Program-made: the position numbers and the translations under genes
Assembly: GCF_015207375.1 (NCBI RefSeq)
Contig: NZ_JADEWY010000013.1
Location: forward strand, 1-64,000
DNA: 64,000 nt
Source: Coleofasciculus sp. LEGE 07092
GTDB taxonomy: Bacteria > Cyanobacteriota > Cyanobacteriia > Cyanobacteriales > Coleofasciculaceae
Direction of reading: 5' to 3'
Notes under the pieces: model-generated
Seen by the model: only the letters and a program-made list of their open reading frames with translations
Told to the model about the DNA's origin: nothing
Database searches by the model: none
Shown: piece after piece, positions 218 to 55,503 of the stretch
Position numbering within the stretch: the first letter of the stretch is position 1
Layout: every line of letters begins with the position of its first letter

Positions 218-1300
218 ATGGCAAACAAGTCAAATCAACCAAGAAATGACGATGCTGTTCTGGGAGGTTACAACCCGCCACCCAGGAGTGGTATGGTTTT
301 GGGCGGTATCCAAGGGGTAAAGGTGCGCTTGAGTAGTCCATTCGTTGAAGAGCGCATAGCAGCAGCTTCGGAAGCGCTAAAGTACGGGGATGCGGGCTTA
401 GATTTGATCCTTCAAGCGTTACAGGATGATTCTGGGCAAGTCCGACGAATAGCTCACTTGCTTCTGTGGGAAAGGACTGAGCCTCATGTAAGACAGGCGA
501 TACAGAACTATGCTCCCACGGACATGGTTGCCTGCTGGCGTTTGGACGAAACGGAAGGGAAAACGGCTACAGATAGTGTCGGTAGCCATCACGGAACCAT
601 TGAGGGAGCAACTCCCACTACTATTGTTCCTGGCAGGATGCCTGGATTGGGAGGGGCAGGGAATCCTGATGAAATCAACCCAGATTCTTACCGTTTTGTT
701 GAGTTTGTTCTACCTAAGGGGTTGGGAAGTGCCTTATCCTTCGATGGCAATGATTATGTAGAAGTCCCCAATGCGCCCGAGTTGAACTTCGGCACAGGTG
801 ATTTTTCGATTTGTATTGGAATTAAGACTCGCAGTCGTGGGGGAATTGATGTGATTTTGGACAAGCGAGTTGAAATATCGGGTTCGGTACAGGGGTATTG
901 TTGTTGTATATATCAGGGTCGGCTGTTGCTGCAACTGGCGGATGGGATAGAGTCAGAATGGACGAATTACGATAGCCAATTTGCGATCGCGGATGATAAG
1001 TGGCATCACATCGTGGTAACGATTGACAGAGACTGTGCTGATGGGGGACGGTGGTATGTCGATGGGATAGAAGTCGGCAAGCGGTTTAACCCAACCAATC
1101 GACAGGGTTCTGTGAGCAATTTCAAACCCTTGATAATGGGTAGGCGTTCTGATAATTCCAGTTCACCGGGTTTCTTCAAGGGCAGCATGAGCGATGTCAG
1201 ACTCTTCAATCGGGTACTGGATGCAGCAGAGGTGCCAGCTATCTATCAGGTGGTTGGCGTGCGGGTAACACGCTCGAGTTTTCAACGAGGAATACGGTAG
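218..1300 (+). CDS. VLGG-module protein with LamG-like jelly-roll domain
   Basis: A 360-residue protein of two parts. Residues 1-110 are a module shared with the genes at 1335 and 25282: QPR near residue 8, two VLGG motifs (14-17 and 27-30), a GVK.R(L/F) motif, and a helical stretch rich in Ala and Leu resembling one or two HEAT repeats. Residues about 115-345 look like a LamG/concanavalin-type fold: CWRLDETEG, ALSFDGNDYVEVPN, DDKWHHIVVTIDR and WYVDGIEVG are typical of LamG_3 domains that bind carbohydrate or protein ligands. No signal peptide is visible, so the protein is probably cytoplasmic. The next gene starts 34 bp downstream on the same strand, suggesting cotranscription. The role is unknown; ligand recognition through the LamG part is inference. 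Confidence 0.8.
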   Translation: MANKSNQPRNDDAVLGGYNPPPRSGMVLGGIQGVKVRLSSPFVEERIAAASEALKYGDAGLDLILQALQDDSGQVRRIAHLLLWERTEPHVRQAIQNYAPTDMVACWRLDETEGKTATDSVGSHHGTIEGATPTTIVPGRMPGLGGAGNPDEINPDSYRFVEFVLPKGLGSALSFDGNDYVEVPNAPELNFGTGDFSICIGIKTRSRGGIDVILDKRVEISGSVQGYCCCIYQGRLLLQLADGIESEWTNYDSQFAIADDKWHHIVVTIDRDCADGGRWYVDGIEVGKRFNPTNRQGSVSNFKPLIMGRRSDNSSSPGFFKGSMSDVRLFNRVLDAAEVPAIYQVVGVRVTRSSFQRGIR

Positions 1301-1334
1301 AGTTTTGAGGGGAAGGGGGAACGAATAAAGGACA

Positions 1335-2546
1335 ATGCCAGACTATCTCCATCAACCTAGAGATTATGATGCCGTCCTTGGTTCGTCGCACTCAGCTCCT
1401 GTGGGTGCGGTGATTTTGGGAGGAATGGATGGCGTTAAGCGACGCTTGGCTAGTGCAGAAGTCGAGTCAAGGATTGCAGGACTAAATGATGCTTCTAACT
1501 ATGGCAAATTTGGCTTGGATTTAATTATTCAGGCGTTAAACGATGAGTCCGAGGACGTGCAGCGTTTAGCCTATTTGTTGCTGAGAAACAGAACGGAACC
1601 ACAAGCAACGAGAGCGTTACTGGCATACATACCCTACCGATTGTTTAATGGTATGAGTACAGTTAAAGCGGGTCAAGAAATTGCAATTAGTCCCGATGGG
1701 AATAGAATTGTCTATTGGCGAGGCAAGACTATTCGAGTTTGGGATTTACAGAAACAGGAATTGCTTTACACTATTCCTAAATATCCCAAAGCTAGAGAGT
1801 TTTTTGCTTTAAGTCAAAATGTTAAAACTTTGGTTAGGGTGAGAAATGGTGGGGGTAATGTTATTGAGATTTGGCATCAGGAGGAACTGTACTCCATTCT
1901 CTACGGACATGACGGTGAAATTGGCGCGATCGCTATTAGTCCAGATGGGCAGACGATTGCTAGTGGTAGCCAGGATAAAACGATTAAAATTTGGCATCTA
2001 GAGACAAGAAAGCTCATCTGTACCTTTGGCAGTCAACTAACCTTGGGAGCGCATACTGCTGAGATTTTATCCCTTGCGTTCAGCGCTGATGGGAAGACGC
2101 TGGTGAGTAGCGCTCGGGATGGCAAAATTAAGCTGTGGGATTTACGAAATCGAACCCGACCTCGTACACTTCAAGGGTATGCTAATTCTGTTGCCATCAA
2201 CCCGGATGGACTGACCCTTGCAAGTAGCAATTGGCACAATCAAATTCAACTGTGGAATCTTTCCAATCAGACTGTAGAGCATACCCTGACAGGGCATTTC
2301 TATTCTGTGAATGCTTTGGTTTTCAGTCCTTACGGACGAGTGCTAGTGAGTGGTGGGAATGATAAATCTATCCACTTTTGGGATGTACAAACAGGCGATA
2401 AAATTCAGACCTTGACGGGACATACTAACACAGTAGATTGCCTGAGACTGAGTGAAGATGGGCAGCGTTTAGTCAGTGGCGGTTCTGATAAAACGGTTAA
2501 GGTGTGGAGTGTGAGTAGAGAATGGGGAGTGGGGAGTAGGGAGTAG
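1335..2546 (+). CDS. VLGG-module protein with WD40 beta-propeller
   Basis: A 403-residue protein. Residues 1-110 repeat the module of the preceding gene (QPR, VLGS, VILGG, GVKRRL, then a HEAT-like helical pair ending in RTEP). Residues about 115-398 form seven WD40-type blades; the first two are degenerate and the last five carry clear SPDG and IW/LW signatures such as GSQDKTIKIW and GGSDKTVKVW. Seven blades would close a propeller, so the protein should fold. WD40 propellers are protein-interaction scaffolds, and no catalytic domain is visible. The C-terminal residues EWGVGSRE and the TAG stop are encoded by a G-rich 7-bp tandem repeat, so the natural C-terminus may have been altered by that repeat. 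Probably in one operon with the gene 34 bp upstream. Confidence 0.85.
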   Translation: MPDYLHQPRDYDAVLGSSHSAPVGAVILGGMDGVKRRLASAEVESRIAGLNDASNYGKFGLDLIIQALNDESEDVQRLAYLLLRNRTEPQATRALLAYIPYRLFNGMSTVKAGQEIAISPDGNRIVYWRGKTIRVWDLQKQELLYTIPKYPKAREFFALSQNVKTLVRVRNGGGNVIEIWHQEELYSILYGHDGEIGAIAISPDGQTIASGSQDKTIKIWHLETRKLICTFGSQLTLGAHTAEILSLAFSADGKTLVSSARDGKIKLWDLRNRTRPRTLQGYANSVAINPDGLTLASSNWHNQIQLWNLSNQTVEHTLTGHFYSVNALVFSPYGRVLVSGGNDKSIHFWDVQTGDKIQTLTGHTNTVDCLRLSEDGQRLVSGGSDKTVKVWSVSREWGVGSRE

Positions 2547-2556: not shown

Positions 2557-2687
2557 ATTTCAGTAAGATTAATATCGTTCTTCGTATATTCCATCCAACT
2601 GAAAACCGCTATAGTCTACAACAGTGACAGACTATCGTGACAGAATACTTCCAGCACATCAACCACCATCATACCGAGGAACGTGCT

Positions 2688-5600
2688 ATGTCCAAATCAA
2701 CGCTTAAAAAACCAGAATTTCGCCATGAACACCGCTTAGGACTGGTGGTATATGGGGGTATCTCCCTCGCTATTTACATGAACGGCATTTGCCGTGAGTT
2801 CTATAATGCTGTACGCGGTCGGGGTATTTATAAACTTATTAAAGCACTTACCGATTCTGATATTGTTGTTGATATTGTATCAGGAACCTCTGCTGGGGGG
2901 ATTAATGGAGTCCTCTTAAGCTATGCTCTAGCTAACAGTACGGACAAGGACGTTGTTGATTTTAAAGAATTTGGTCAGATTTGGCGAGAAAGCGGCAGCA
3001 TTCGCAATCTGATGCATCAGCCTCTAGCGCGAGAATCTAAAGTTGAGTCTGTATTAGATGGGGCAGGATACTATCAATCTGAGCTAGCTACAGCGTTTCA
3101 AAAAGCTAGCAATAATAAAACCGATGCCCCAGCAGGAGAGTGGTTGTCGCCATTTAATGAGTTAGATTTATTTGTCACGGGGACGGATACAATCGGGCGA
3201 ATTTATCGGGCATTTGACGATACCGGAAGCGTGATAGAAGTTAAAGATCATCGTAGCATTTTCAGCCTCAAACACCGTCAAGGTCGCAAAGAACCTTTCA
3301 ATCCCAGCGGCGATCCCGCTGATCCCAATCGCACACCCAAACAAACCTATCAATCTCTGGCAAAACTTTGCCGGATTACCTCATGCTTTCCCGTTGCTTT
3401 TCCGGTGGTTAGCATCGGATTGAAAGAGGATGCCAATGAGTTAGATCGCAGGTTGGTTGAATGGGGACGGCTAGAAACTCGTGAGTTACCTGAAAAGCGA
3501 CCGAGAGAAGGTTATCAATTACATTTTGTCGATGGTGGAGTGTTGGACAATCGACCCTTCAGTTATACCATTCGAGATATTTATTACCGTACTGCCAATC
3601 GTCCAGTTAATCGCCAGCTTTTCTACATCGATCCAAGTCCTGATCGCTTTTCTGGCAGTCCTAAGTTTATCACGATGCCCAAACCCAATGCCTTGGAAGT
3701 GATTCAAGATTCATTAATCGGTTTGCCGATGTATGAAAGTATCAGTAACGATTTAGAGGCAATCAAAGAACATAACGAAAAAATTCGCCGCTACAATGAG
3801 ATTTTAGCGGCTGTTGAAGCTCCAGATTACTCTCTAGCCGAAGTTTCCGGTGAGATTGATGTTAATGAAGGCATTTATCTGCGGAGTCGTCTGATTGGAT
3901 TGCGCGATCGCATCCTGCCGCTAATTTTAAGGATGGATCGAGATGGCAGCAATAACTCCGACAAAGGCAACCAAACCATCTTAGAGAAAACAGCACAATT
4001 ACTAGTCGAAGGCATCACGGGCGAGGGAGAGAGTAAACAACAAGAAGCAATTCTACAAAGAGCTGGAGAACAAATTCGCAATCTAGATGTAGACTATGCC
4101 ATAAGAAAGCATTTCTATATTACTGAAAAGCTTTTCCAATTGCTAGAGAAGGAATCGGGCGCATTAGAATACAAAAAAATCCGATTGTTAGTGAGCAGAC
4201 TTAACCGCCATATCAAGCTAGTAGAAGTTATCGGTACGGCGTTAAATATGTTCCTGAGTCACCCTCAAGTCAGCGAATCATTCTACCGTTTGCTAGAGCA
4301 TCAACCTCCCCGCACTAATCAGGAATTAACCAATCGCTTACGCACTCAAATCTACGATCGCCTCTTGCGACTGAATCGCTTTTTCCTTGATGCTGATGGG
4401 TTAGAAAAGTTTGTGCCTCCAGCTTTTAATCGAGAACGTTTTAAAGCTATTCCCGCTGACTTTTTTAAAAAATTACCCTCACGAGCTAATGACTTAGCCT
4501 TAGAGTTTGATCAACTGGATACTAAACCCGTTGATTGGTTGTCTCAAAAACAAATTTCTGGTATTCTTGAGCAATTCAAGCAAAAAATTAGCAACTTAGA
4601 AGACAATCCATCTTACCTAGAAACAATCTGGTCAGATGAACGCTACGGAGAACGAAGCCCAGACAACTGCGGCAACGAATTTTGCTCAGTTTTGTCTAAA
4701 GTGGAGCAAGCCTCAGATATCTTGATCCAGTCGAGTGGATTGAAAAAGCCAAAAGATATCTTCAATCGGTTTAAAAACTTTCGTCATTTGGATCGCGTAC
4801 TTTATCCCTTTGAATACTTAAGCTCTCTAAACGAAAAAGATATTATTAAAACCATTCGATTTAGTCCCGATGATGCACAAATGGGATTAGGAAAAGGGAA
4901 AACAATTGAGGATAAATTAGCTGGAGATACTTTAAATGCTTTTGGGGGATTTTTCAAGAAATCCTGGCGGTCAAATGATATGCTGTGGGGACGATTGGAC
5001 GGGCTTAACCGCATTTTTGAAGCCTTAGTCACCCGTGATTCTCTAAAATCGTTTCCTAGGTTTCTAGAACGACAATCTCAGGAGCAGAGATGTACGAAAG
5101 ACGAATACTTAGAATTGCTAGTTCACGAATGTTTCTCCAACGTCCAACCCAGCGATCGCCAAAAACTAAAATCCCATCTTAAGATATTATCCGAACCCAA
5201 TTCCCAAGCATCGGATGCAGTCTTGGACATCATTTTTAACGACTTGGTACTAGAGAGTCATCGCTCAATTTTATCAGCAGATATTCGGACTGTTATAGAA
5301 GATGAGATTGCCGAACAAATCTCCTGGAACCGACAGCGAATTCAACCGAATGAACCCGATAATGTTGAAAAACTACTGGTTAAACTAGGAGATGAACCAC
5401 CTAAATATCGACCTGTTCCCGGTTACTTTCAAAAAAGTGTTAGCCTCTTAGCGGCTGGAAAATTAGCGAAAGATGCTATTGATACGCTATCACCTCACGA
5501 AAAAGAAGAGTTTTTTCGTAATCAATACCGAGTCGGCAAAGAAACGGTGTTGAAAGATATTCCCAGTATTGTGCTGGCAAATTTAGCAACTCGATTTAGT

Positions 5601-5918
5601 CTAGTGCTGCGAGATATTATTAACACCCTATTGGGTGAGAGACGTGCTGCACAACTCCGAGGACTGTTATCTTATCAGTTTTTTAACAAGTCAGTCCAAT
5701 TGTTCTACTGGTGGTTGCAACTGAGGGGACCAACGGCAATGCAAAGCCCGAATTTTATCGGCAGGCGACCTCTACTTTTGATCGTTCAGGTAGTGTTGTT
5801 ATTGACGGCTATTATTGCTGTTGCGATCGCTGTAGCTAAATCACCCTTAGCCGTAGCTGTGGCGTTGATTGCCACCGTCCTCTTTTGGTTACTGGGGTAT
5901 CTGTGGAAAAAATTTTAA
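2688..5918 (+). CDS. large patatin-like phospholipase with C-terminal membrane anchor
   Basis: A 1,076-residue protein of the long patatin-related family. The oxyanion-hole region (LGLVVYGGISLAIYMNG) is followed by the nucleophile elbow GTSAGG with Ser68, and the catalytic Asp lies in VDGGVLDN (about residue 282), so the Ser-Asp dyad is complete. Residues about 350-1000 are mostly helical with no domain I can name. The C-terminus has two hydrophobic segments (around LLLIVQVVLLLTAIIAVAIA and VALIATVLFWLLGYLW), predicting membrane attachment. The start at 2688 is chosen because GAGGA lies 7 bases upstream; the frame also opens at a GTG at 2637 without such a site. Patatins hydrolyse acyl esters of membrane lipids. 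It follows the two VLGG-module genes on the same strand after a 141-bp gap. A housekeeping lipase or a conflict-system effector are both possible. Confidence 0.9.
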   Translation: MSKSTLKKPEFRHEHRLGLVVYGGISLAIYMNGICREFYNAVRGRGIYKLIKALTDSDIVVDIVSGTSAGGINGVLLSYALANSTDKDVVDFKEFGQIWRESGSIRNLMHQPLARESKVESVLDGAGYYQSELATAFQKASNNKTDAPAGEWLSPFNELDLFVTGTDTIGRIYRAFDDTGSVIEVKDHRSIFSLKHRQGRKEPFNPSGDPADPNRTPKQTYQSLAKLCRITSCFPVAFPVVSIGLKEDANELDRRLVEWGRLETRELPEKRPREGYQLHFVDGGVLDNRPFSYTIRDIYYRTANRPVNRQLFYIDPSPDRFSGSPKFITMPKPNALEVIQDSLIGLPMYESISNDLEAIKEHNEKIRRYNEILAAVEAPDYSLAEVSGEIDVNEGIYLRSRLIGLRDRILPLILRMDRDGSNNSDKGNQTILEKTAQLLVEGITGEGESKQQEAILQRAGEQIRNLDVDYAIRKHFYITEKLFQLLEKESGALEYKKIRLLVSRLNRHIKLVEVIGTALNMFLSHPQVSESFYRLLEHQPPRTNQELTNRLRTQIYDRLLRLNRFFLDADGLEKFVPPAFNRERFKAIPADFFKKLPSRANDLALEFDQLDTKPVDWLSQKQISGILEQFKQKISNLEDNPSYLETIWSDERYGERSPDNCGNEFCSVLSKVEQASDILIQSSGLKKPKDIFNRFKNFRHLDRVLYPFEYLSSLNEKDIIKTIRFSPDDAQMGLGKGKTIEDKLAGDTLNAFGGFFKKSWRSNDMLWGRLDGLNRIFEALVTRDSLKSFPRFLERQSQEQRCTKDEYLELLVHECFSNVQPSDRQKLKSHLKILSEPNSQASDAVLDIIFNDLVLESHRSILSADIRTVIEDEIAEQISWNRQRIQPNEPDNVEKLLVKLGDEPPKYRPVPGYFQKSVSLLAAGKLAKDAIDTLSPHEKEEFFRNQYRVGKETVLKDIPSIVLANLATRFSLVLRDIINTLLGERRAAQLRGLLSYQFFNKSVQLFYWWLQLRGPTAMQSPNFIGRRPLLLIVQVVLLLTAIIAVAIAVAKSPLAVAVALIATVLFWLLGYLWKKF

Positions 5919-13878: not shown

Positions 13879-16800
13879 ATGGAAGTTGCTGATTCATGCC
13901 TAATGAGGATTGCCCGGATGCATCAATCGTTAAAGTCCCTCAGCCTTGTAACTGTCACTGTACTCCTCTCTCTGGTTTCTCCTCGGTCACTGGCAGAAAC
14001 TACCGCAGAGATATCAAGTGTTCTGGCACAAGAGCTAATGCCCCAAGACTATCAAGCCACTGCCAACGTTGAGGGAACCTGGAATATTACTGAAGCCAAA
14101 ACCACAGATGGCAGGAACTATACCGGAACTGTCACCATTCAACCGATTGGTCAGATTTACAGTCTTTCCTGGCAGACTTCAGCAGGAAATCAATTAGGAT
14201 TAGCTTTCTTAGAAAATGATCGCCTGTTTGTCGCTTGGGGTTCTGATGAGGCATCAGGCTACGGTCTTGGCGTGTACAAAATTGGCGGGGATGGCAATCT
14301 GGATGGAAGATGGACTTACTCGAAGGCTGGGGGCGAAATCGGGACTGAAATCGCTACCGGAGGCAGACCAGACCAGATTGAGGGGAATTATCAGGTTACT
14401 GGGACAAATCCTGGCAGTGAAGGGCAATACAAAGGAAATTTAAACATTCGTAAGACAGGTGACACCTATCAACTTGCCTGGACTGTGGGAGCAACGTATC
14501 GGGGTGTTGGCATACGTTCTGGTGATTGGCTGCTCGTAAGTTGGGGGCAATCGAGCCAATTTGGTGTTGTTGACTATACGATCAGTGGAGACAAAGCTAA
14601 GGGTCGCTTGGCTATTGTTAATCAGTCCAGTCTCGGTATAGAGAACCTGGTTCGCACTCAGACTAGTGCTAATCTCTCGCTCTTGTGTACTCTAGAACAC
14701 ACGCCAATAATTCAAGACCGAAAAGCTGAGGCGGATTGTCTTTTGGAGCAAGGTATTAAGCAGATTGATACCAACCGATTCCAGTTGGCATTGCAACCGT
14801 TGCAACAGGCACTGGCGATTTACCGGGAAATCCAAGACCGTCAGGGAGAGGGGCAAACGCTGAAAAACCTGGGCAACGCCTACTTCTATAGTCTAAAAGA
14901 CTATACCAAAGCAATTGAGTACCAGCAACAGGCTTTAGCCATTGCACGGGAAATTAAAGACCGAGATCTAGAGGCAAGAGCATTACTGAATACAGGAATT
15001 GCTTATAAAGAGCTAGGAGAATCTGTTGAGGCAATTGCCTACTATCAACAGAGTTTAGCGATCGCACGGGAAATTCAAAGCCACGAGATAGAGTGGAAGG
15101 CTCTGAACAATCTCGGCATTGTTTACTCTTCTCTAAAAGACTCCACCAAAGCGATTGAGTATCAGCAGCAGGTGTTAGCGATCGCGAGGGAACTCCAAAA
15201 TCATGACCTGGAATGGACAGCTCTCAGTGCTTTAGTTAGCTCTTACGATTCTTTAAAGGATTATCATAAGGTCGTTGAGTTTGCCCAACAAGGTTTGACT
15301 TTTGCACGGGAAACTCAAAATCAGGAAAGGGAAAGGTTAGCTCTCAATACTCTAATTAGTGCTTATACCTTTCTAGGAAACCAAACTCAAGCAATTGAGT
15401 ATCAACAGCAAATTTTAGCCCTTGCTAGGAAACTACAAGATCAAGACCTTGAATGGTCAGCTCTCAGTGCTTTAGTTGGCTCTTATGATTCTCTCAAGGA
15501 TTATCAAAAAGTCATCGAGTTTGCCCAACAAGGCTTGACTTTTGCACGAGAAGCTCAGAATCGTGATAGGGAATTAGCAGCTTTAATAACTCTCAGCAGT
15601 GCTTACTATTCTCTAGAAGAATACGAGAAAGTTATTGAGTCGGCTCAAGCTGGCTTGGCGGTGGCAAGGCAAATTGGAAATCGTGCTATTGAAGCTAGGG
15701 CTTTAGGATTTATAGGTGATGCTTACTCTTCACTACAAGATTATCCTAAAGCGATTGAGCTTTATCAGCAAAGCCTTGTAATCGCTAAGGAAATTGAAGA
15801 CCGCTATCGAGAAGGTGCCGTTTCGATAGCTCTTAGTCGTACTTATAATTCACTCAATGAACTCCAAAAAGTAATTGAGTTCGCTCAAGCGGGTTTGGCT
15901 GTGGCGCAGCAAATCGAAAATCGTGATATTGAAGCTAGGGCTTTAGCATTTATAGGCGATGCTTACACTTCCCTAGAGAACTATCAGCAGGCGATTGAGG
16001 CTGCACAGCAAGCCTTAGTAATTGCCCAAGAGACTGAAAATGGTTTGCTAGAAGCTTATGCTTTTGATACGCTCAGCCGCGCTTACTCTTCTCTCAATGA
16101 TTATCAGAAATCTGTTGAATTAGCTCGGCAACAGTTGGAAGTTGCCCAGAGGATAAAAAATAGTTGGTTTGAAGGGCGAGCATTGGCACGGCTAGGGGAT
16201 GTTTACAAATTACTGGGTGAAGTTGGAAAAGCCATTGAACTTGCTCAGCAAGGGCTAGTCATTGCGCGGGAAATTAAAAATCGCTATCTTGAAGCCTGGA
16301 ATCTAATTACTCTAGGGGATGCCTATGACTTAATAGGAGACAATAGGAAGGCAATTGAATTTGCTCAACAGGGATTAACATTTGCACAAGAGATTAAAAA
16401 TCGCCACTTAGAGCTTTTAGCCCTAAGTACTCTAGGTGGAGCTTATAACTCACTAGGTGACTACCAAAAGTCAATTGAATTTTTACAACAAAACTTAACT
16501 CTTGCACGAGAGCTTAGAGAACGTGATAGTGAAGCAATAGCTTTAGTCAATCTAAGTAACACCTATGATTCTCTAGAGGATTATCAAAAAGCGATTGAGC
16601 TTTTGCAACAGAGTTTGACAATCGCTAGAGAAATTAAAGACCGTCGTCTGGAAGCACAAGCTTTAGGAAACCTTAGTGGCATCTACGCTTCGCTTAATGA
16701 TTATGAAAAAGCTCTTGAGGTTGCTAATCAAGGATTGGAGATTGCACAAGAAATCCAGAACTACCAGGTGCTAATGCGTTCCTTGTATTCTCTTTCTGTA

Positions 16801-18969
16801 ATCTATGAAATCCTGGGAAATTACCCCAAGCTTGTTCAAATTTCCGAACAAAGTCTAGCGACGGCACGAGAACTACAAAATCCTCAGTTAGAAGCCGCAT
16901 CGTTAGCCATTCTGGGTCTAGCTTATTTTTATCAAGGAGATACTCAAAAAACAATTGAATTTGCTCAAGCTAGCTTAACTGTTTCAGATGAGAGCAATAG
17001 CCAGTTAGCTAAGAGTATTGCAATTTTAGTTATGAGTGTTAGTTATGGTGAATTGAAAAACTATGACAAAGCTATTGAGCTGTCTGAGGAAAATTTAAAA
17101 TTAGCTCAAGAGTCAAATGATATTAACCTCGAAAGAGCAACATTAAATATTCTAGGTGCTATCTACAGGAAAGCCGGACAGAACGAGAAATCGCTTGCTG
17201 CCTACCAAAAGGTATTGGCAATGGGTCTGGAGAGCGAAAGCCATACAAGTCGAGTCATGGCTCAAGCTGGTTTAGCGCGTACCTATCGTGAACTAAACAT
17301 GCCTATTACTGCAATCACCCACTACAAGCAAGCTATCAATGGTATTGAGCAAATCCGTAGTAATATCCGTGGACTATCTCCAGAATTACAAGAGTCATTT
17401 CTACAATCTATCATCGATTTTGACAGATTTAAGACGGCTGATATTTACCGCGAATTAGCAGACTTGTTGCTATCACAAGGACGAATTTTAGAAGCGCAGC
17501 AGGTGTTGGAACTGTTGAAGGTGCAGGAATTACGTGACTTTACTAGGAATACGAGGGCAGGTGGGGAAAAGCAGAAAGTCACATTTAATCAGACAGAGGA
17601 ACAGATTAAAAATGAACATGGCACGTTGATTGCCTTCGGACAAAAAGTTACTGAGTGTGAGGAAACCTCATGCAGTCAACTAGATCAACTGCTAGCTCAA
17701 CAAGATATATTGACTGAGGAATTTAATCAAAGTGTTGAGACGATTGAAAAAGAAGTGCGCGATCGCATTTCCACAGACCCTGCTACGCTTGACTCAGAAG
17801 ACTTTCTCCGCAAAGCCAACGAAATTGTCGAAGCCCAACCTGGCACTGTACTAATTTACCCCTTAGTCTTGGAAGACAAAATCTGGCTGTTGTGGGCAGC
17901 AAAAGGCGGTATCGTTAAAAGCATTGAAGTTTCCGACGTGGGACAGCGCCAGCTAGGGGAAACCGTTGTGAACTTTCGCCAACTGCTGCAAAACCCATCT
18001 TCAGATATTGCCGAACTGCAAGCCACTGGTAAGCAACTCTACGATTGGCTAATCAAACCTTTGGAATCAGAACTGAAAAGTAATACCATTCAAAATCTCG
18101 TCTTCTCCCTCGATCGCGCTGCCCGCTACATCCCCATGAGCGCCCTATTTGATGGCGAGAAGTACTTAATTGAAAACTATACCATTTCCACCGTACTATC
18201 CGCCGATTTGACCAACACAGACAAACGCTTGCCTCCGGGAACTGAAAACACCTCCGTTTTGGCAATGGGACTCTCGAATGCTGTCGCTGGTTTCAACCCT
18301 TTGCCCAATGTACCACCCGAACTGGATGCGATTGTCCTGAACGCTGATAATGACCCACTAGGAGTGTATTCCGGAAGTCAGTTTCTCAACCAGGAATTTA
18401 ATTTAGAAACATTGAGAAAAAATCTGCGCGGGAATCAGATTTTGCACTTAGCCACTCACGGCGAATTTAACCCAGGACGCCCAGAGGATTCCTATCTAGT
18501 GCTAGGAAATGGTGATAAGTTCGCAATTCCTGAAATTTCTAAACTATATAGGCAGTTAAGCGATGTGCATCTGGTTGTGCTTTCAGCTTGCGAAACTGCC
18601 CTTGGTGGTTCTGACGCTGATGGAAACGAGATTAATGGCATCAGCTATTACTTTCTCAATTACGGTGCTGAGGCGGTAATGGCTTCCTTATGGCTTGTCG
18701 ATGATGCTAGCACTAGTCAACTGATGCAGCAATTCTACAGCAACTTAGCCAACGGAACCGATGCAGCACCCATAACCAAAGCCGAAGCCCTGCGACAAGC
18801 ACAACTGAGTCTGTTACACAATGATACTCTAACGACAGAGACTACTGATCCAAGGGCAAGCATCGAAGTTAGACTTAGACCGGGTTCCCAAGCGGCTAAC
18901 CGTACTGCCTCCGGTTTTTCTCACCCCTACTACTGGGCACCCTTTATTCTCATCGGCAATAGCTTGTAG
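13879..18969 (+). CDS. exported TPR-repeat protein with C-terminal CHAT peptidase domain
   Basis: A 1,696-residue protein. The order is: N-terminal signal peptide (hydrophobic SLVTVTVLLSLVSPRSLA, residues about 22-40); two related beta-rich repeats of about 95 residues (about 62-260, each with a G.Y.L.W core and a W-rich end); some twenty 40-residue kinesin-light-chain-type TPRs (about 285-1180; recurring YxxALxxYxKAIE...A...A.EI patterns); a short coiled region; and a CHAT domain (about 1370-1696). The caspase-like dyad is present: His1527 in HLATHGEF and Cys1571 in SACETALGG. CHAT proteases cut after specific residues upon activation, with TPRs as the sensor or substrate platform. Signal-peptide export is unusual for caspase-like enzymes and suggests periplasmic action. 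Substrate unknown. The start may also be one of the in-frame ATGs within the first 15 residues. Confidence 0.93.
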   Translation: MEVADSCLMRIARMHQSLKSLSLVTVTVLLSLVSPRSLAETTAEISSVLAQELMPQDYQATANVEGTWNITEAKTTDGRNYTGTVTIQPIGQIYSLSWQTSAGNQLGLAFLENDRLFVAWGSDEASGYGLGVYKIGGDGNLDGRWTYSKAGGEIGTEIATGGRPDQIEGNYQVTGTNPGSEGQYKGNLNIRKTGDTYQLAWTVGATYRGVGIRSGDWLLVSWGQSSQFGVVDYTISGDKAKGRLAIVNQSSLGIENLVRTQTSANLSLLCTLEHTPIIQDRKAEADCLLEQGIKQIDTNRFQLALQPLQQALAIYREIQDRQGEGQTLKNLGNAYFYSLKDYTKAIEYQQQALAIAREIKDRDLEARALLNTGIAYKELGESVEAIAYYQQSLAIAREIQSHEIEWKALNNLGIVYSSLKDSTKAIEYQQQVLAIARELQNHDLEWTALSALVSSYDSLKDYHKVVEFAQQGLTFARETQNQERERLALNTLISAYTFLGNQTQAIEYQQQILALARKLQDQDLEWSALSALVGSYDSLKDYQKVIEFAQQGLTFAREAQNRDRELAALITLSSAYYSLEEYEKVIESAQAGLAVARQIGNRAIEARALGFIGDAYSSLQDYPKAIELYQQSLVIAKEIEDRYREGAVSIALSRTYNSLNELQKVIEFAQAGLAVAQQIENRDIEARALAFIGDAYTSLENYQQAIEAAQQALVIAQETENGLLEAYAFDTLSRAYSSLNDYQKSVELARQQLEVAQRIKNSWFEGRALARLGDVYKLLGEVGKAIELAQQGLVIAREIKNRYLEAWNLITLGDAYDLIGDNRKAIEFAQQGLTFAQEIKNRHLELLALSTLGGAYNSLGDYQKSIEFLQQNLTLARELRERDSEAIALVNLSNTYDSLEDYQKAIELLQQSLTIAREIKDRRLEAQALGNLSGIYASLNDYEKALEVANQGLEIAQEIQNYQVLMRSLYSLSVIYEILGNYPKLVQISEQSLATARELQNPQLEAASLAILGLAYFYQGDTQKTIEFAQASLTVSDESNSQLAKSIAILVMSVSYGELKNYDKAIELSEENLKLAQESNDINLERATLNILGAIYRKAGQNEKSLAAYQKVLAMGLESESHTSRVMAQAGLARTYRELNMPITAITHYKQAINGIEQIRSNIRGLSPELQESFLQSIIDFDRFKTADIYRELADLLLSQGRILEAQQVLELLKVQELRDFTRNTRAGGEKQKVTFNQTEEQIKNEHGTLIAFGQKVTECEETSCSQLDQLLAQQDILTEEFNQSVETIEKEVRDRISTDPATLDSEDFLRKANEIVEAQPGTVLIYPLVLEDKIWLLWAAKGGIVKSIEVSDVGQRQLGETVVNFRQLLQNPSSDIAELQATGKQLYDWLIKPLESELKSNTIQNLVFSLDRAARYIPMSALFDGEKYLIENYTISTVLSADLTNTDKRLPPGTENTSVLAMGLSNAVAGFNPLPNVPPELDAIVLNADNDPLGVYSGSQFLNQEFNLETLRKNLRGNQILHLATHGEFNPGRPEDSYLVLGNGDKFAIPEISKLYRQLSDVHLVVLSACETALGGSDADGNEINGISYYFLNYGAEAVMASLWLVDDASTSQLMQQFYSNLANGTDAAPITKAEALRQAQLSLLHNDTLTTETTDPRASIEVRLRPGSQAANRTASGFSHPYYWAPFILIGNSL

Positions 18970-25281: not shown

Positions 25282-25939
25282 ATGGCAGCCAAATTCAATC
25301 AGCCCAGAGCCGATGATGCCGTCTTAGGAGGTTGTTCAATACCATCTCCCCCTTATGCTGCTGTATTAGGAGGATTGGTGGGGGTGAAGCGTCGCTTTGT
25401 CAGTCCAGTGGTCAGCCAGCGAATCGCTGCGGTTAAGGATACCATCAAGTATGGTCAAGAGGGATTCCCTTTGCTGTTGGACGGGCTGAAGGATTCTGAC
25501 TGGCGAGTGCGTCACGCTGCCTACTCGCTTCTCAAGGGGTTTGATGACAACCGATTGCGGCAGCGTCTGGCAGAGTACAACCCGTTTCAATTTTTGAGTT
25601 GTCTTTACCGACATCCTACTGCTCAGTCTACCGCTTATGCACTATGGCAGTCAGGATAAAACGATTAAGGTGTGGCATTTGCGTACTGGCAATTTGCTCA
25701 ATACATTAAGTGGACATTGGGGTGAAGTCAATGCTGTTGCTATCAGTAAAGATGGGCAAACATTGGTGAGTTGCAGTGGGGATGAAACCCTGCGGTTGTG
25801 GCATTTGCCAACAGGGATTTTGCTGCACAATTTGACAGGACATCGAGGAGCAGTTGTTTCGCTGGCTATTAGTTCAGATGCACAAAAAATAGTGAGTGGC
25901 AGTCTGGATCGAACCCTGCGGGTGTGGGGAATGGGGTAG
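25282..25939 (+). pseudogene. third VLGG-module/WD40 gene, broken by deletion and frameshift
   Basis: The first part (25282-25659, 125 codons) encodes the same N-terminal module as the genes at 218 and 1335: NQPR, DAVLGG, AAVLGG, GVKRRF and a HEAT-like helical pair, to FLSCLYRHPTAQSTAY. The WD40 part continues in a different frame (25637-25939) with GSQDKTIKVWHLRTGN and two more blade ends, only about two and a half blades in total. The join lies inside a blade, as expected for a deletion that removed several repeats and shifted frame. A closed propeller cannot form. The N-terminal 125-residue product might still be made. The last codons and the TAG stop fall in a G-rich tandem repeat, as in the paralogue at 1335. 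Confidence 0.75.
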
Positions 25940-49263: not shown

Positions 49264-52200
49264 ATGAAATCTGCCTATCCCTGCTTTGGCTGGTTGTTGC
49301 TCAGTCTTGTTCTGACGGGTGTAATACCCGATTCGGGGCTTCAGAATGGCGAAAGCCAAATCGGGAATGAGCGAGCTTGGTTTGAGTTGATTTCTCCTGC
49401 CCATGCCCAACCCATTACCCCAGAAGCAGATAGCGCTGGCACAAGGGTTACCCAGGAGGGGAATTACTTTAATATTGACGGTGGCACTCCTTCAGGAGAC
49501 AGGGCGAATCTCTTCCACAGCCTTGAACGGTTTAGACTCGATGGGAATCAAGTTGCTAACTTTTTGTCCAATCCCCAAATTCAAAATATATTGGGGCGGG
49601 TTGTTGGGGGGGAAGCCTCTCTCATTAATGGGCTCATTCAGGTAACGGGAGGTAACTCAAATTTATTTTTAATGAACCCGGCTGGGATAATTTTTGGACC
49701 GAATGCCCAGCTTAATGTTCCTGCTGGCTTTACTGCTACCACAGCTACGGGCATTGGTTTTGATGAGAACAACTGGTTCAATGCTTTTGGTGAGAATAAC
49801 TACCAGAGTTTAATCGGCACTCCCAGTACTTTTGCCTTTGACTTGCTCCAATCAGGAGCAATTATTAATGAAGCTAATCTAGCTGTGCTGGAGGGGCAAA
49901 CTTTAGCATTAGTGGGTGGCAGTGTGACGAATCAGGGAGAAATAACTGCACCGGGTGGAAGGCTGATTATTACGGCAGTGCCTGGTGAAAATTTGGTCAG
50001 AATTACTCAACCCGGAAATCTGCTAAGTGTCGAGATTGAACCCCCTCGCACGGCGAATGGACAGCAGCTAGCGATTAGTCCTCTAGATTTGCCCACATTA
50101 CTAACCGGGAACGGAGGGCAAATTTTAAATGAAGGGCAACTGTCTAGTTCCGATAGCGATCGCACTGGCATAATAAGCATAGCTGGTTCTGTCGTCTATA
50201 ACCTCGGTCAAATTACTGCTGATGGCAAGAACGGTGGCAGTATTCAGATTCAGACCCACAGTTTATATGACACTGGGATACTGAGCGCCATAGGCAACCA
50301 GGGCAATGGTGGGGAAATTCAAGTTAATTCAACCGGCAGTATTATTCAAACTGCTAACGCTACGACTTCAGCCAATGGCTCTCAGCAAGGGGGAAGCATT
50401 GACTTTAACGGGGGTTCCGGTACAGTCCTGACAACTTCAAGTCGCTTTGATGCCACAGGAGAGGTCGGTGGTACAGTTCATCTGTTTGCTCAGACTGTGC
50501 AATTACTAGCGGCTGATGTCAATGTTAACGGGGCTAGTGGTGGTGGCGAGATTTTAATAGGTGGCAACTTTCAGGGACAGACTTCTGGAGCCATCAATGC
50601 CCAAACTACCTCAATTAATCATGCCAGCACCTTAACAGCCAATGCTCTAACCACTGGAAACGGGGGGTGGGCAATTGTTTGGTCTGACCAGCAAACTGAA
50701 TTTGCAGGTACAATTCAGGCGCGCGGGGGTGCAGTTGGCGGTGACGGTGGTTTTGTGGAAGTTTCAGGAAAAGACACCCTATTAATGGCAGGCACTGTAG
50801 ATGTAGGAGCTACCAACGGGCAAGCCGGAACCCTATTGCTTGACCCGAAAACTATTGTAATTGACGATAGCGCTGGGAGCATTCCCCAGTTTGACTTAAT
50901 CGACCCGAATACAGGCAATGGTTCAGGGTTTGGTGATGCCATTGCACCGTTGAGTACAGGGAATATAGTAGTCACTAAGCCAGGAGATACCTTTGGGGGA
51001 ACTAACGCAGGTGCCGTTTACCTCTACAGTGGTGCGACTGGGGCACTAATTAATATGCTTGCGGGAGCTGCAAATGATGAGGTGGGCAGCGGTGATGTGA
51101 CGGCTCTAAGTAACGGTAATTATGTAGTAGCTAGCCCAAACTGGAGCAATAATCAAGGAGCCGCGACTTGGGGTAATGGCACGACTGGGATTACGGGGAT
51201 GCTGAGTATAGCGAACAGTTTAGTTGGCACTCAGACAGGCGATTCGGTAGGTAGTGGTGGTGTGACAGCTCTGAGTAATGGTAATTATGTGGTAGCTAGC
51301 CCAAACTGGAACAATGAGAAGGGAGCTGTAACCTGGGGTAATGGCACGACTGGAATTATTGGCGATGTCAATAATACTAATAGTTTAGTGGGTACTCAGA
51401 ATGTTGACCGTTTAGGCAATGGCGGTGTGACGGCTCTGAGTAATGGCAATTATGTTGTTAGCAGTCGCTTATGGGACAATGGCGCGATTCAGGATGCAGG
51501 GGCAGTGACTTGGGGTGATGGCTCGAGTGGGATTACAGGAGAGGTAAATACAACCAATAGCTTAGTTGGTAGTTCAGCAAATAATCTGGTCGGTTTTAGT
51601 GGTGTGACGGCTCTGAGTAACGGCAATTACGTCGTTAGCAGTCCCTTCTGGGACAATGGGGCAATCCAGAATGTAGGGGCTGTGAGCTGGGGCAATGGCA
51701 CGACTGGTATTACTGGACTGGTAAACAACATCAATAGTTTAGTTGGCACTCAAACCAATGAGCAGGTAGGCGGTGGTGGCATTACTGCTCTTACTAATGG
51801 CAATTATGTTGTCAGTAGCCCAGAATGGAACAATAAAATAGGAGCCGTGACCTGGGGAAATGGTACGACTGGGATTATTGATGTAGTCAGTGCAGCTAAT
51901 AGTTTAGTCGGTAGCCAAGCCAATGACCAGATAGGCAGTGGCGGTATTACTGCTCTTACCAACGGCAATTACGTTGTCAGTAGCCCAGAATGGAACAATA
52001 AACTAGGAGCCGTGACCTGGGGAAATGGCACAACTGGGATTGTTGATGTAGTCAGTGCAGCTAATAGTTTAGTCGGTAGCCAAGCCAATGACCAAGTAGG
52101 CAGTGGCGGCGTTACTGCTCTGACTAACGGCAATTACGTTATCAGTAGCCCAGACTGGACAAATAGCATAGCACCGAATGCCGGAGCAGTAACTTGGGGT

Positions 52201-55200
52201 AATGGCACGACTGGTATTACCGGGATTGTGAGTACTGTTAATAGTTTGGTTGGAACTCAAGCCAATGACCAGATAGGCAGTGGTGGTATTACTGCCCTTT
52301 TCAACGGCAATTACGCAGTCAGTAGTCCGGATTGGACAAATAAGCTAGGAGCTGTTACCTGGGGAAATGGCACGACTGGGATTATTGGTGTTGTGAGTGT
52401 AGCTAATAGTTTAGTCGGTAGCCAAGCCAATGACCAAGTAGGCAGTGGTGCTTTAACGGCTCTTTTTAATGGGAATTACCTTGTCAGTAGCCCTGACTGG
52501 AAAAATCAGGGGGCAAATGTGGGAGCCGTTACCTGGGTTGATGGTAGTAATGGACGGAGTTGGGATGGTACGAATACTGTCAGTGATTCAAACAGCATCA
52601 TTGGTCGTCAGCCTAGTGCGGGTTTGGGTACAGTTGTTGATGACCCAGTTAATGAAACTTTTTTAGTGCAATTTGCTAATGAAGGTAGTGGTCGAGTCAC
52701 GGTGGGATTTCTTAAACCGCTCACGTTTTCAAACATATCTACTAATTCCGTAACTATCTCCCCCAACTTTTTGCAGCGAACGTTAGACACAGGTACAGCC
52801 GTGGTGCTGCAAGCTAATAATGACATTATCTTTAATAGCCCCATTAATGTTACTAATCCCAACAGCGCCAACCTTACTTTTCAAGCAGGACGCAGTATTG
52901 AAATTAATGCTGACATCGTTACCAATAACGGTGATTTAAACTTGATTGCCAACGAAACTTTGGCAAATGGAGTGGTAGATGCTGAACGAGACTCTGGTAT
53001 AGCCGAAATTTTATTGGCAGATGGAGTCATCCTTGATGCAGGTACTGGGGATATTAATATTACTCTGAGTAACGGTGCTGGTTTGAGCAATAACGATAGT
53101 GGGGATATTACCCTGGCAGGGAATGTCAACGCTAGAACTATCACTGTAGAAAATAACGGATTAAGCGGTAGTGTGACTATTGAAGAAAATGCAAATTTTA
53201 ACTACACGCAAGATTTTAAAGTTACAACAACAAGCGGTGATATTGAATTTAAAAATCTGTTTACTTTAACGGGTAATACGTTTCTTAGTACCGATACAGG
53301 TTACATTAGTTTCAACAACTATATTGAGGGCAGTAGCGGTACGGAAAACCTCACTCTGACGGCTACAACGGGTAATATCAATTTTACAAATTCAGTAGGT
53401 AGTAACACCCCCATCGGCAACCTGATAATTCTCAATGCCAATAATCTGACAGCTAACAACTCCATTACTGCGGCTAGCCTCACGCACACAAGTGGTACTG
53501 GAACAATTAACCTGCAAGACGTGCGAACCCTCGGAGGTGATGCGCGGCTGGCTACAACCAATAACCTAACCACGGGTAATATCAGGACGGCTGGTGGACA
53601 GATTCACCTGACTAGTACTCAAGACACTATTAATAGCGGAAACTTAAATTCTTCTGCTGCCACTGCTGGTGATATTGTTGTGAATGCTGAGGTTAGCATC
53701 AAGGCTGGGGAAATTAATTCTAGTGGTAGTATTGGTGATGGCGGTAACGTTACCCTTGACCCTCGCAATGATATTGAGGTGAACTGGATTAATGCTCAGG
53801 GTGGTAGTAATGGCAGAGGCGGTAATGTCGATATTACAACTGATCAATTCTTCCGTGTCAGTAATAATTTTATCGATAAAAACGGTAGAGAAGCTAGTAT
53901 CTCAACGACTGGAGGTAACGGCGGGGGAACTATCACGATTCGCCATGGGGGACAAGGATTAACTCCCTTTGATGTGGGTGACGCTACTACTAATGGTACG
54001 GCTGGTGCAATTACTAGCGGTAATTTCACCATTTCCCCAGTCCAATCATTTCCCTTCACCCACACTGAAGGGAATATTCAGATTATTAGTGTTGATGAAC
54101 CTGTTAATCCACCGCCTCCTAATCCATCAACCCCTAATCAACCGACTCCTAATCCATCAATCAACCCCTCTGATTTAACTGTCTCTCAGCAATCTAATCA
54201 ATCAGCAATTCAGAAGGATGAATCCAGAGTTATCGAGATTGATAATTTATTTAGCAGAGATTATGAAGACTATTTTGGACTCGCTAAAACTTCTGGCATT
54301 ACTTTAGAGCAAGCTCGCGAAATTTTGCGTAAAACGGAAACAGCAACTGGTGTGAAAACGGCTGTTATTTATGCCGTATTTGCACCCAGAACTATCAGTG
54401 CAGTGCCTGAAAATAGTCAAGGATTAGAGGCAATATCAGACAATACTGGCTTGTTACGTGCCTTGACTCGTCAACCGAGCGATCGCTTAGAATTGATCTT
54501 AATATCAGCAGAAGGAAAACCAATCCGTAAATCTGTTGATGTTACCAGAGCTGAAGTCATGAAAATGGCGGTGCAATTTCGGCAAACGGTTACTAATTTC
54601 CGAAATAATCAGGACTACCTGCCACCTGCTTACCAGATGTATCGGTGGCTCGTTCAACCCTTAGAAGCGGATTTAAAGGCACTAAAAATCAATCATCTCG
54701 CTTTTGTGATGGACACAGGTTTGCGTTCCCTACCCATTGCCGCGTTGTATGATGGTGGCAATTTTATCATAGAACGATATAGCGTTGGCTTGATGCCTAG
54801 TCTCAGCCTCACAGATACTCGCTATCACGATGTGAGGAATAATTCCGTTTTGGCAATGGGCGCTTCAAAATTCTATGATCGTAATCCCCTACCTGCTGTA
54901 CCAGTAGAGTTGTCTGTCATTGCTAATCAGTTGTGGCAAGGTCAATCTTTCCTCAACGAATCCTTTACCTTGGCAAACCTTAAGCAAGCTCGCCAACAAG
55001 AAGCGTTTGGAATTATCCATTTAGCTACTCATGCAGAATTTCGACCGGGTAAGCCTAGTAATTCCTACATTCAATTATGGGATACTCAACTAGGACTGGA
55101 TCAAATGTGGCGATTAGATTGGCATAAACCATCGGTGGATTTATTAGTATTAAGCGCTTGTCGTACTGCGTTGGGAGATGAAGAATCTGAGCTAGGATTT

Positions 55201-55503
55201 ACGGGATTAGCGGTACAAGCTGGAGTGAAATCAGCCTTAGGAAGTCTCTGGTATGTCAGCGATGAAGGTACGTTGGGATTAATGACAGCTTTTTATGAGC
55301 AACTGAAAAAAAGCCCCATCAAAGCTGAGGCAGTGCGGCAGGCGCAACTAGCTCTGCTCAAAGGTGAGGTACGACAAGAGGGGGATGTATTAATCACTCC
55401 CAATAGTCGTATTTCCTTACCCTCAGATTTTCCTCGGCAGATACAAAACTTCCGTCATCCCTACTACTGGAGTGCTTTCACGCTGATTGGCAATCCTTGG
55501 TAA
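49264..55503 (+). CDS. filamentous haemagglutinin-type exoprotein with C-terminal CHAT protease
   Basis: A 2,079-residue protein. A signal peptide (WLLLSLVLTGVIPDSG) precedes a two-partner-secretion (TPS) domain, residues about 50-310, with the hallmark NLFLMNPAGIIFGPNAQLNV. A beta-helix-like region follows. Residues about 611-1118 hold nine 55-59 residue repeats (each with TALxNGNYVVSSP and GAVTWGNGTTGI). A second beta-helix region reaches about 1610, then a Pro-rich linker (NPPPPNPSTPNQPTPNPS). The last 330 residues are a CHAT domain with the dyad His1923 (HLATHAEF) and Cys1966 (SACRTALG). TPS proteins are exported by a TpsB pore, but none is nearby. The fusion suggests a protease displayed or released outside the cell. 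Substrate unknown. Confidence 0.93.
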   Translation: MKSAYPCFGWLLLSLVLTGVIPDSGLQNGESQIGNERAWFELISPAHAQPITPEADSAGTRVTQEGNYFNIDGGTPSGDRANLFHSLERFRLDGNQVANFLSNPQIQNILGRVVGGEASLINGLIQVTGGNSNLFLMNPAGIIFGPNAQLNVPAGFTATTATGIGFDENNWFNAFGENNYQSLIGTPSTFAFDLLQSGAIINEANLAVLEGQTLALVGGSVTNQGEITAPGGRLIITAVPGENLVRITQPGNLLSVEIEPPRTANGQQLAISPLDLPTLLTGNGGQILNEGQLSSSDSDRTGIISIAGSVVYNLGQITADGKNGGSIQIQTHSLYDTGILSAIGNQGNGGEIQVNSTGSIIQTANATTSANGSQQGGSIDFNGGSGTVLTTSSRFDATGEVGGTVHLFAQTVQLLAADVNVNGASGGGEILIGGNFQGQTSGAINAQTTSINHASTLTANALTTGNGGWAIVWSDQQTEFAGTIQARGGAVGGDGGFVEVSGKDTLLMAGTVDVGATNGQAGTLLLDPKTIVIDDSAGSIPQFDLIDPNTGNGSGFGDAIAPLSTGNIVVTKPGDTFGGTNAGAVYLYSGATGALINMLAGAANDEVGSGDVTALSNGNYVVASPNWSNNQGAATWGNGTTGITGMLSIANSLVGTQTGDSVGSGGVTALSNGNYVVASPNWNNEKGAVTWGNGTTGIIGDVNNTNSLVGTQNVDRLGNGGVTALSNGNYVVSSRLWDNGAIQDAGAVTWGDGSSGITGEVNTTNSLVGSSANNLVGFSGVTALSNGNYVVSSPFWDNGAIQNVGAVSWGNGTTGITGLVNNINSLVGTQTNEQVGGGGITALTNGNYVVSSPEWNNKIGAVTWGNGTTGIIDVVSAANSLVGSQANDQIGSGGITALTNGNYVVSSPEWNNKLGAVTWGNGTTGIVDVVSAANSLVGSQANDQVGSGGVTALTNGNYVISSPDWTNSIAPNAGAVTWGNGTTGITGIVSTVNSLVGTQANDQIGSGGITALFNGNYAVSSPDWTNKLGAVTWGNGTTGIIGVVSVANSLVGSQANDQVGSGALTALFNGNYLVSSPDWKNQGANVGAVTWVDGSNGRSWDGTNTVSDSNSIIGRQPSAGLGTVVDDPVNETFLVQFANEGSGRVTVGFLKPLTFSNISTNSVTISPNFLQRTLDTGTAVVLQANNDIIFNSPINVTNPNSANLTFQAGRSIEINADIVTNNGDLNLIANETLANGVVDAERDSGIAEILLADGVILDAGTGDINITLSNGAGLSNNDSGDITLAGNVNARTITVENNGLSGSVTIEENANFNYTQDFKVTTTSGDIEFKNLFTLTGNTFLSTDTGYISFNNYIEGSSGTENLTLTATTGNINFTNSVGSNTPIGNLIILNANNLTANNSITAASLTHTSGTGTINLQDVRTLGGDARLATTNNLTTGNIRTAGGQIHLTSTQDTINSGNLNSSAATAGDIVVNAEVSIKAGEINSSGSIGDGGNVTLDPRNDIEVNWINAQGGSNGRGGNVDITTDQFFRVSNNFIDKNGREASISTTGGNGGGTITIRHGGQGLTPFDVGDATTNGTAGAITSGNFTISPVQSFPFTHTEGNIQIISVDEPVNPPPPNPSTPNQPTPNPSINPSDLTVSQQSNQSAIQKDESRVIEIDNLFSRDYEDYFGLAKTSGITLEQAREILRKTETATGVKTAVIYAVFAPRTISAVPENSQGLEAISDNTGLLRALTRQPSDRLELILISAEGKPIRKSVDVTRAEVMKMAVQFRQTVTNFRNNQDYLPPAYQMYRWLVQPLEADLKALKINHLAFVMDTGLRSLPIAALYDGGNFIIERYSVGLMPSLSLTDTRYHDVRNNSVLAMGASKFYDRNPLPAVPVELSVIANQLWQGQSFLNESFTLANLKQARQQEAFGIIHLATHAEFRPGKPSNSYIQLWDTQLGLDQMWRLDWHKPSVDLLVLSACRTALGDEESELGFTGLAVQAGVKSALGSLWYVSDEGTLGLMTAFYEQLKKSPIKAEAVRQAQLALLKGEVRQEGDVLITPNSRISLPSDFPRQIQNFRHPYYWSAFTLIGNPW
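51096..52620 (+). repeat. nine tandem ~165-177 bp coding repeats
   Basis: Internal repeats of the exoprotein gene encoding nine 55-59 residue units. Units 5 (51781-51945) and 6 (51946-52110) are exactly 165 bp each and differ at only about ten positions, indicating recent duplication. Units 3, 4, 7 and 9 carry a short insertion after the W.N motif. Confidence 0.85.

Follow-up and report, generated by a model that had tools for sequence, protein, structure and literature searches.

At the left end of the 64,000-nucleotide stretch of Coleofasciculus sp. LEGE 07092 DNA analyzed here (the window), two adjacent genes and a third starting at 25282 code for proteins that begin alike and continue differently, raising the question of what a constant N-terminus does in front of exchangeable domains. 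The shared module spans the N-terminal ~110 residues of the three proteins (A, B, and C; 43 to 44% identity in alignment) and contains QPR, two [VI]LG[GS] motifs, GVKxR, and a helical stretch, all as an earlier note, made from the sequence alone, had described. The features are as follows.

218 to 1300, + strand: tagged protein A, 360 aa, with tag, ARM-like bundle, and LamG (concanavalin-type) C-terminus (ORF; PF13385, E 8e-21; module profile)
236 to 328, + strand: two-part tag of protein A, residues 7 to 37, QPRNDDAVLGG...MVLGGIQGVKVR (conservation; AF2 pLDDT)
305 to 562, + strand: predicted ARM/HEAT-like helical bundle of protein A, residues 30 to 115, GUN4 N-domain-like (AF2 model; Foldseek 1z3x)
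1335 to 2546, + strand: tagged protein B, 403 aa, with tag, ARM-like bundle, and WD40 propeller (ORF; Pfam WD40; AF2)
1353 to 1445, + strand: two-part tag of protein B, residues 7 to 37, QPRDYDAVLGS...VILGGMDGVKRR (alignment; pLDDT)
25282 to 25659, + strand: tagged protein C, 125 aa, module only, with a broken ORF by comparison with intact relatives (ORF; module profile; comparison with L133)
25637 to 25939, + strand: WD40 remnant of protein C, in another frame (Pfam; comparison with L133)

Copies of the module in one genome

A profile built from the three modules matches them with E values of 4e-62 to 8e-61 and finds two more good copies in the same genome, an LRR type on C4 (4e-43) and a pentapeptide type on C1 (5e-27) that adjoins Ycf46 and DUF1257, together with a degenerate copy on C290; these E values and the additional copies exclude a chance origin. 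C290 carries a fusion of Hsp70 with a remnant of the tag and with WD40 and, separately, a GrpE-like and Hsp70 pair. The LamG label that the note had given to protein A is borne out by Pfam, and its WD40 label stands for protein B; the 25282 ORF, to which WD40 was also ascribed, is module only. Relative to its intact relative L133, protein C has lost ~185 residues between the module and the WD40 remnant and has a frameshift, and because of this deletion and the out-of-frame remnant it resembles a degraded copy, an apparent pseudogene.

Several other window genes are of note in their own right. The two tagged genes are directly followed by a patatin-like phospholipase with DUF3376 (2637 to 5918), a family that is not recurrent at other tagged loci, and Pfam identifies two CHAT proteins, a TPR-CHAT protein of 1696 aa (13879 to 18969) and one of 2079 aa (49264 to 55503) in which a TPS secretion domain and DUF5650 repeats are combined with CHAT at the C-terminus.

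A predicted disordered tag and helical bundle

The module is organized as a two-part tag, QPxxxD[AV]VLGG-x4-P-x2-G[AV]VLGGxxGVKxR, of which residues 1 to 29 are predicted to be disordered, and a helical part. The QPR/VLGG part is covered by no Pfam or NCBIfam model, and it is not merely a variable N-terminus: across 153 modules (~92 effective) conservation is highest at P8 (99%), D12 (100%), G16 (99%), L28 (99%), G29 (99%), G30 (100%), and G33 (97%), and the helical part is more variable than the tag. The doubled LGG, which the note had considered the best-kept element, is thus nearly invariant, although it shares that rank with D12, G16, G33, and P8.

AlphaFold gives pLDDT values mostly below 50 over residues 1 to 29 and ~90 over residues 31 to 80, with alignments of eight sequences only, a shallow depth that could partly cause the low tail confidence; in the full-length model of protein B, residues 1 to 30 have pLDDT of 43 to 52 and the bundle and propeller are well predicted. 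These low values place both VLGG motifs in a tail predicted to be flexible; the second motif continues into the first modeled helix.

The tag appears to be separable from the bundle, as judged from proteins with tag only and with split halves. The gene at L111:10154-10882 codes for QQPLEYDAVLGG immediately before pentapeptides, with no bundle, and lies directly upstream of Ycf46; in L200 the tag halves are ~36 residues apart, and in L079 both motifs are conserved after a receiver domain. A small HTH-like protein (L201:8293-8739) carries the DAVLG tag at each end. Being predicted to be disordered, nearly invariant, and separable from the helices, the LGG pair looks like the docking site that had been proposed.

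The helical pair, described earlier as HEAT-like, is indeed predicted to be helical but is better described as an ARM-like bundle: residues 30 to 115 are modeled as an ARM/HEAT-like fold weakly similar to the GUN4 N-domain. The highest-probability Foldseek match is GUN4 structure 1z3x (probability 0.98, TM 0.51, rmsd 3.0), but with an E value of 0.68, and the match of the module profile in the PDB is likewise below significance (E 0.51). The best member score for GUN4_N (PF16416) is 22.5 bits (E 1e-4), below the curated cut-off of 24.3 bits, and GUN4_N is missing from the 25 families with the most matches among 138 members. A pure HEAT repeat family was rejected since scores lie below the cut-offs, with HEAT_2 at 12.3 bits in protein A and 22.1 bits in protein C (cut-off 27.7) and HEAT at 22.7 bits in protein C (cut-off 23.5); one relative with a doubled bundle scores above the cut-off, at 30.4 bits.

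Distribution and C-terminal exchange

The note had placed similar proteins in other large cyanobacterial genomes, and the module is present in 100 of 390 sampled Cyanobacteriia genomes (about a quarter; nine of the 100 are weak matches that may be to the helical part only), at up to 12 copies per genome and often in tandem; no described function was found. A DNA pattern for the first tag half has at least 93 listed matches in 59 of the 390 genomes, compared with 1 for the reversed control. Matches listed in the phylum sample are only in members of the class, and a wider genome contig scan with an over-strict pattern, a weak test of absence outside cyanobacteria, gave 3 cyanobacterial loci only. 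Among viral contigs there are 30 pattern matches, none a relative.

The constant module is followed by swapped C-terminal domains, as had been proposed. In the fetched set these are WD40 (58), an unknown family (26), GUN4 (23), the FGE-sulfatase fold (16), and STM4015-type LRR (12), followed by pentapeptide (9), LamG (3), LRV (3), PspA-like (2), and others. Tagged proteins that end in an unknown domain (UNK1), for which Pfam gives nothing more than weak GUN4_N/HEAT matches, stand in tandem, up to six in a row, at L070, L074, L076, L084 (5022 to 10018), L129, L130, and L157, and these arrays often directly follow the radical-SAM gene STM4011. STM4014-4013-4012-4011 clusters with a tagged STM4015-type LRR are at L070, L074, L076, L119, L129, and L158, mostly near a GrpE-Hsp70 pair.

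A chaperone core beside tagged genes

Neighbors clustered from the module loci include DUF1257 (20 loci), a Ycf46-like AAA+ protein (16), Hsp70 (14), and a GrpE-like protein (13), as well as DUF2997 and, beside the LRR type, STM4011-4014. These recurrent neighbors replace the CHAT or patatin partners envisaged earlier: no patatin, CHAT, caspase, trypsin, or vWA was recognized among the 35 neighbor families listed at three or more loci, an assessment based on example sequences and on partial Pfam labels, ten of the families having been run against Pfam. No J-protein was recognized among the recurrent neighbors either. A core chaperone gene lies within 8 kb of the module at 26 of 95 module loci, with ~2% expected under a crude uniform null, a binomial comparison that is only indicative since related genera contribute many of the loci and one Hsp70 match (L153) is an ordinary-looking DnaK; the remaining 69 loci have no core gene alongside. 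The same core is found beside WD40, LRR, FGE, GUN4, UNK1, pentapeptide, LamG, and LRV tagged types alike, and L240 has Ycf46, tag, DUF1257, tag, DUF2997, GrpE, and Hsp70 genes in one same-strand run.

The linked Hsp70 has a nucleotide-binding domain (PF00012, E 4e-29; DnaK structures, E 2e-35) and ends at ~535 aa, directly after the substrate-binding beta region, without the C-terminal helical lid. It is a distinct paralogue, set apart by a gap between its own weakest score, E 3e-157, and the strongest of the next Hsp70 group, 9e-143. The GrpE-like protein falls under the PF01025 cut-off (18.3 bits versus 25.8; E 0.002) and looks by sequence like a divergent GrpE relative; a second, presumably canonical GrpE group scores ~1e-38 and weaker against its profile. 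Its N-terminus has a hydrophobic, probably membrane-type helix in most cases and an HTH-like segment in others, located N-terminal to the GrpE part at L073:10110-10904, L240:5343-6095, and L241:4996-5667.

Fusion of two partners is classical evidence of joint action. Hsp70 is fused to the second tag half and WD40 both in the window's own genome (L087, GAVLGGLAGARRRL) and in G024 (L222, GASLGGLAGTKKRL), and these fusions thus argue that Hsp70 and tag act together.

Co-occurrence of the module and the linked Hsp70

Among the 390 genomes, 84 have both the strict module and the linked Hsp70, 7 have the module only, 7 have the Hsp70 only, and 292 have neither; by genus the counts are 33, 3, 6, and 115 (Fisher 2e-24), and within the window's own order 17, 4, 4, and 59 (p 1e-10), the strict set excluding the nine weak matches and the tests by genome, genus, and order ignoring the tree. 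Because the association persists within that order, it needs more than broad differences between clades or in genome size to account for it. A looser association with the module is seen for the GrpE-like factor (34/8/7/108 by genus, p 5e-20), and a presumed Microcystis-like genus (g92) has the Hsp70 and lacks the specific GrpE-like factor. Seven strict module genomes are without a full Hsp70 (G182, G422, G243, G334, G376, G067, and G303); in G182 the Hsp70 is reduced to its 3' part and in G422 the module is truncated, at 114 aa, exceptions that look like joint decay of module and Hsp70.

A probable address for a dedicated chaperone, and its rivals

On balance, we think it probable that the tag and bundle are an N-terminal address linking diverse scaffold and ligand-binding proteins to a dedicated lid-less Hsp70 machine. 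The observations are a conserved module with a tail predicted to be disordered, exchange of the domains behind it, linkage of the genes, co-occurrence, and the Hsp70-tag-WD40 fusions; direct tag-Hsp70 binding and its effect are what we infer. Counting against this reading are the seven module genomes that lack a full Hsp70, the Microcystis-like genomes that lack the specific GrpE-like factor, the 69 loci away from core genes, and the failure to recognize a J-protein among the recurrent neighbors. The flexible tag would dock on the Hsp70, at the substrate-binding beta domain or a neighboring face, and ATP cycling would control how the tagged scaffold folds, its state of assembly, or where it is located, with the GrpE-like factor perhaps exerting part of this control at the membrane. 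Classical DnaK motifs disfavor acidic residues, and since the invariant D12 is acidic, binding may use a non-canonical site. The Hsp70 is usually paired with the GrpE-like factor and is linked to the AAA+ protein Ycf46 with DUF1257/DUF2997, and Ycf46 and DUF1257 would then have a putative role in the machine. A fuller version is more tentative: a private Hsp70 machine that recognizes the two-part tag and so enlists any fused domain, the GrpE-like protein setting the place (in its membrane or HTH-bearing form) and Ycf46-DUF1257 providing a second remodeling step.

The main rival, which we consider unlikely, makes Ycf46 (with DUF1257/DUF2997) the reader of the tag, pulling or remodeling tagged proteins with the Hsp70-GrpE-like pair as its companion. 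AAA+ machines commonly grip disordered termini, which this reading fits, and it also accords with Ycf46 lying near 17 and DUF1257 near 20 of the 95 loci and with the tag-only pentapeptide gene directly upstream of Ycf46. However, the fetched stretches of L070, L076, L129, and L158 have Hsp70-GrpE next to the tagged genes and no Ycf46, the tag is fused to Hsp70 and not to Ycf46 in both fusions, and published papers on plastids and ferredoxin report Ycf46 and DUF1257 from many plastids and from Synechocystis, so that presence alone is unspecific. It is improbable, too, that the bundle is a GUN4-derived, tetrapyrrole-linked adaptor with the tag as its N-terminal extension, the set sensing pigment or photosynthetic state; GUN4 fusions are the third commonest type and both the GUN4_N match of one member and the 1z3x match point this way, but conservation is higher in the tag than in the bundle and the tag persists without it, the GUN4_N match falls short of the curated threshold, and GUN4 is absent from most members.

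Domain swapping, tandem arrays, and the high copy number would also suit a conflict or immunity system in which a constant adaptor precedes exchangeable C-terminal sensors, as in EAD/VMAP and as the earlier note suggested, and the C-terminal types overlap cyanobacterial VMAP sets (GUN4, FGS, beta-propellers, and pentapeptide; Kaur et al. 2020, PMC7159879). Nevertheless, no MoxR-vWA, CHAT, caspase, trypsin, STAND, or nuclease was recognized among the recurrent neighbors, PADLOC gives generic AAA/HEAT/WD40-type matches only, and none of the pattern matches in viral contigs proved to be the module; these scans yielded nothing specific and no positive evidence for a defense role, which leaves a conflict system improbable. 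Least probable is a role of the LGG pair as a double-glycine-like signal for proteolytic processing or sorting. Two GG motifs do lie near the N-terminus within the predicted disordered tail, but the second is conserved inside the Hsp70-WD40 fusions, both are conserved after the receiver domain of L079, and no C39-type peptidase or exporter was recognized among the recurrent neighbors; a double-glycine leader was rejected on account of motif conservation at these internal positions.

If the chaperone-address reading is correct, it departs from the usual view of Hsp70s as general folding machines, in that an Hsp70 would be used with a tag swapped among unrelated domains. It would also be a first functional lead for the conserved unknowns Ycf46, DUF1257/Ycf35, DUF2997, and STM4015-type proteins, a link testable by a short peptide, and modeling the tag as a family could allow annotators to recover a hidden set of co-functioning proteins.

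Comparison with known systems

Open-access texts gave no description of the tag, of Ycf46 with DUF1257 and Hsp70, or of STM401x in this connection, although PMC9239167 covers specialized Hsp70 systems of cyanobacteria and PMC7159879 covers conflict loci with Hsp70-GrpE. The DnaK1-DnaJ3-GrpE system of Nostoc punctiforme and Synechocystis (PMC9239167) is likewise a cyanobacterial Hsp70 specialized for defined partners and membrane-linked tasks, but no N-terminal tag is described for it and its partners are a J-protein and a single standard GrpE. The GAP1-N2 conflict systems (Kaur et al. 2020, PMC7159879) share an HSP70-GrpE gene pair beside variable proteins, but they center on GTPases, mainly in actinobacteria and firmicutes, and no such GTPase was recognized at tagged loci. 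EAD adaptors and VMAP ternary systems (PMC7159879, PMC8195603) similarly place a short constant adaptor or core before GUN4, FGS, propeller, and pentapeptide domains; they have their own core NTPase and peptidase genes, not seen here, whereas the present system has a predicted disordered tag and an Hsp70 core. The GUN4 N-terminal ARM domain (PF16416; PDB 1z3x) weakly resembles the predicted helical bundle of the module, and GUN4 fusions are among the tagged proteins, but it is without the QPxxxDAVLGG tag and the module's match to it is below the Pfam cut-off. In the STM4011-STM4015 gene cluster of cyanobacteria, LRR-type tagged proteins occupy the STM4015 place, but this LRR is only one of many C-terminal types that carry the tag.
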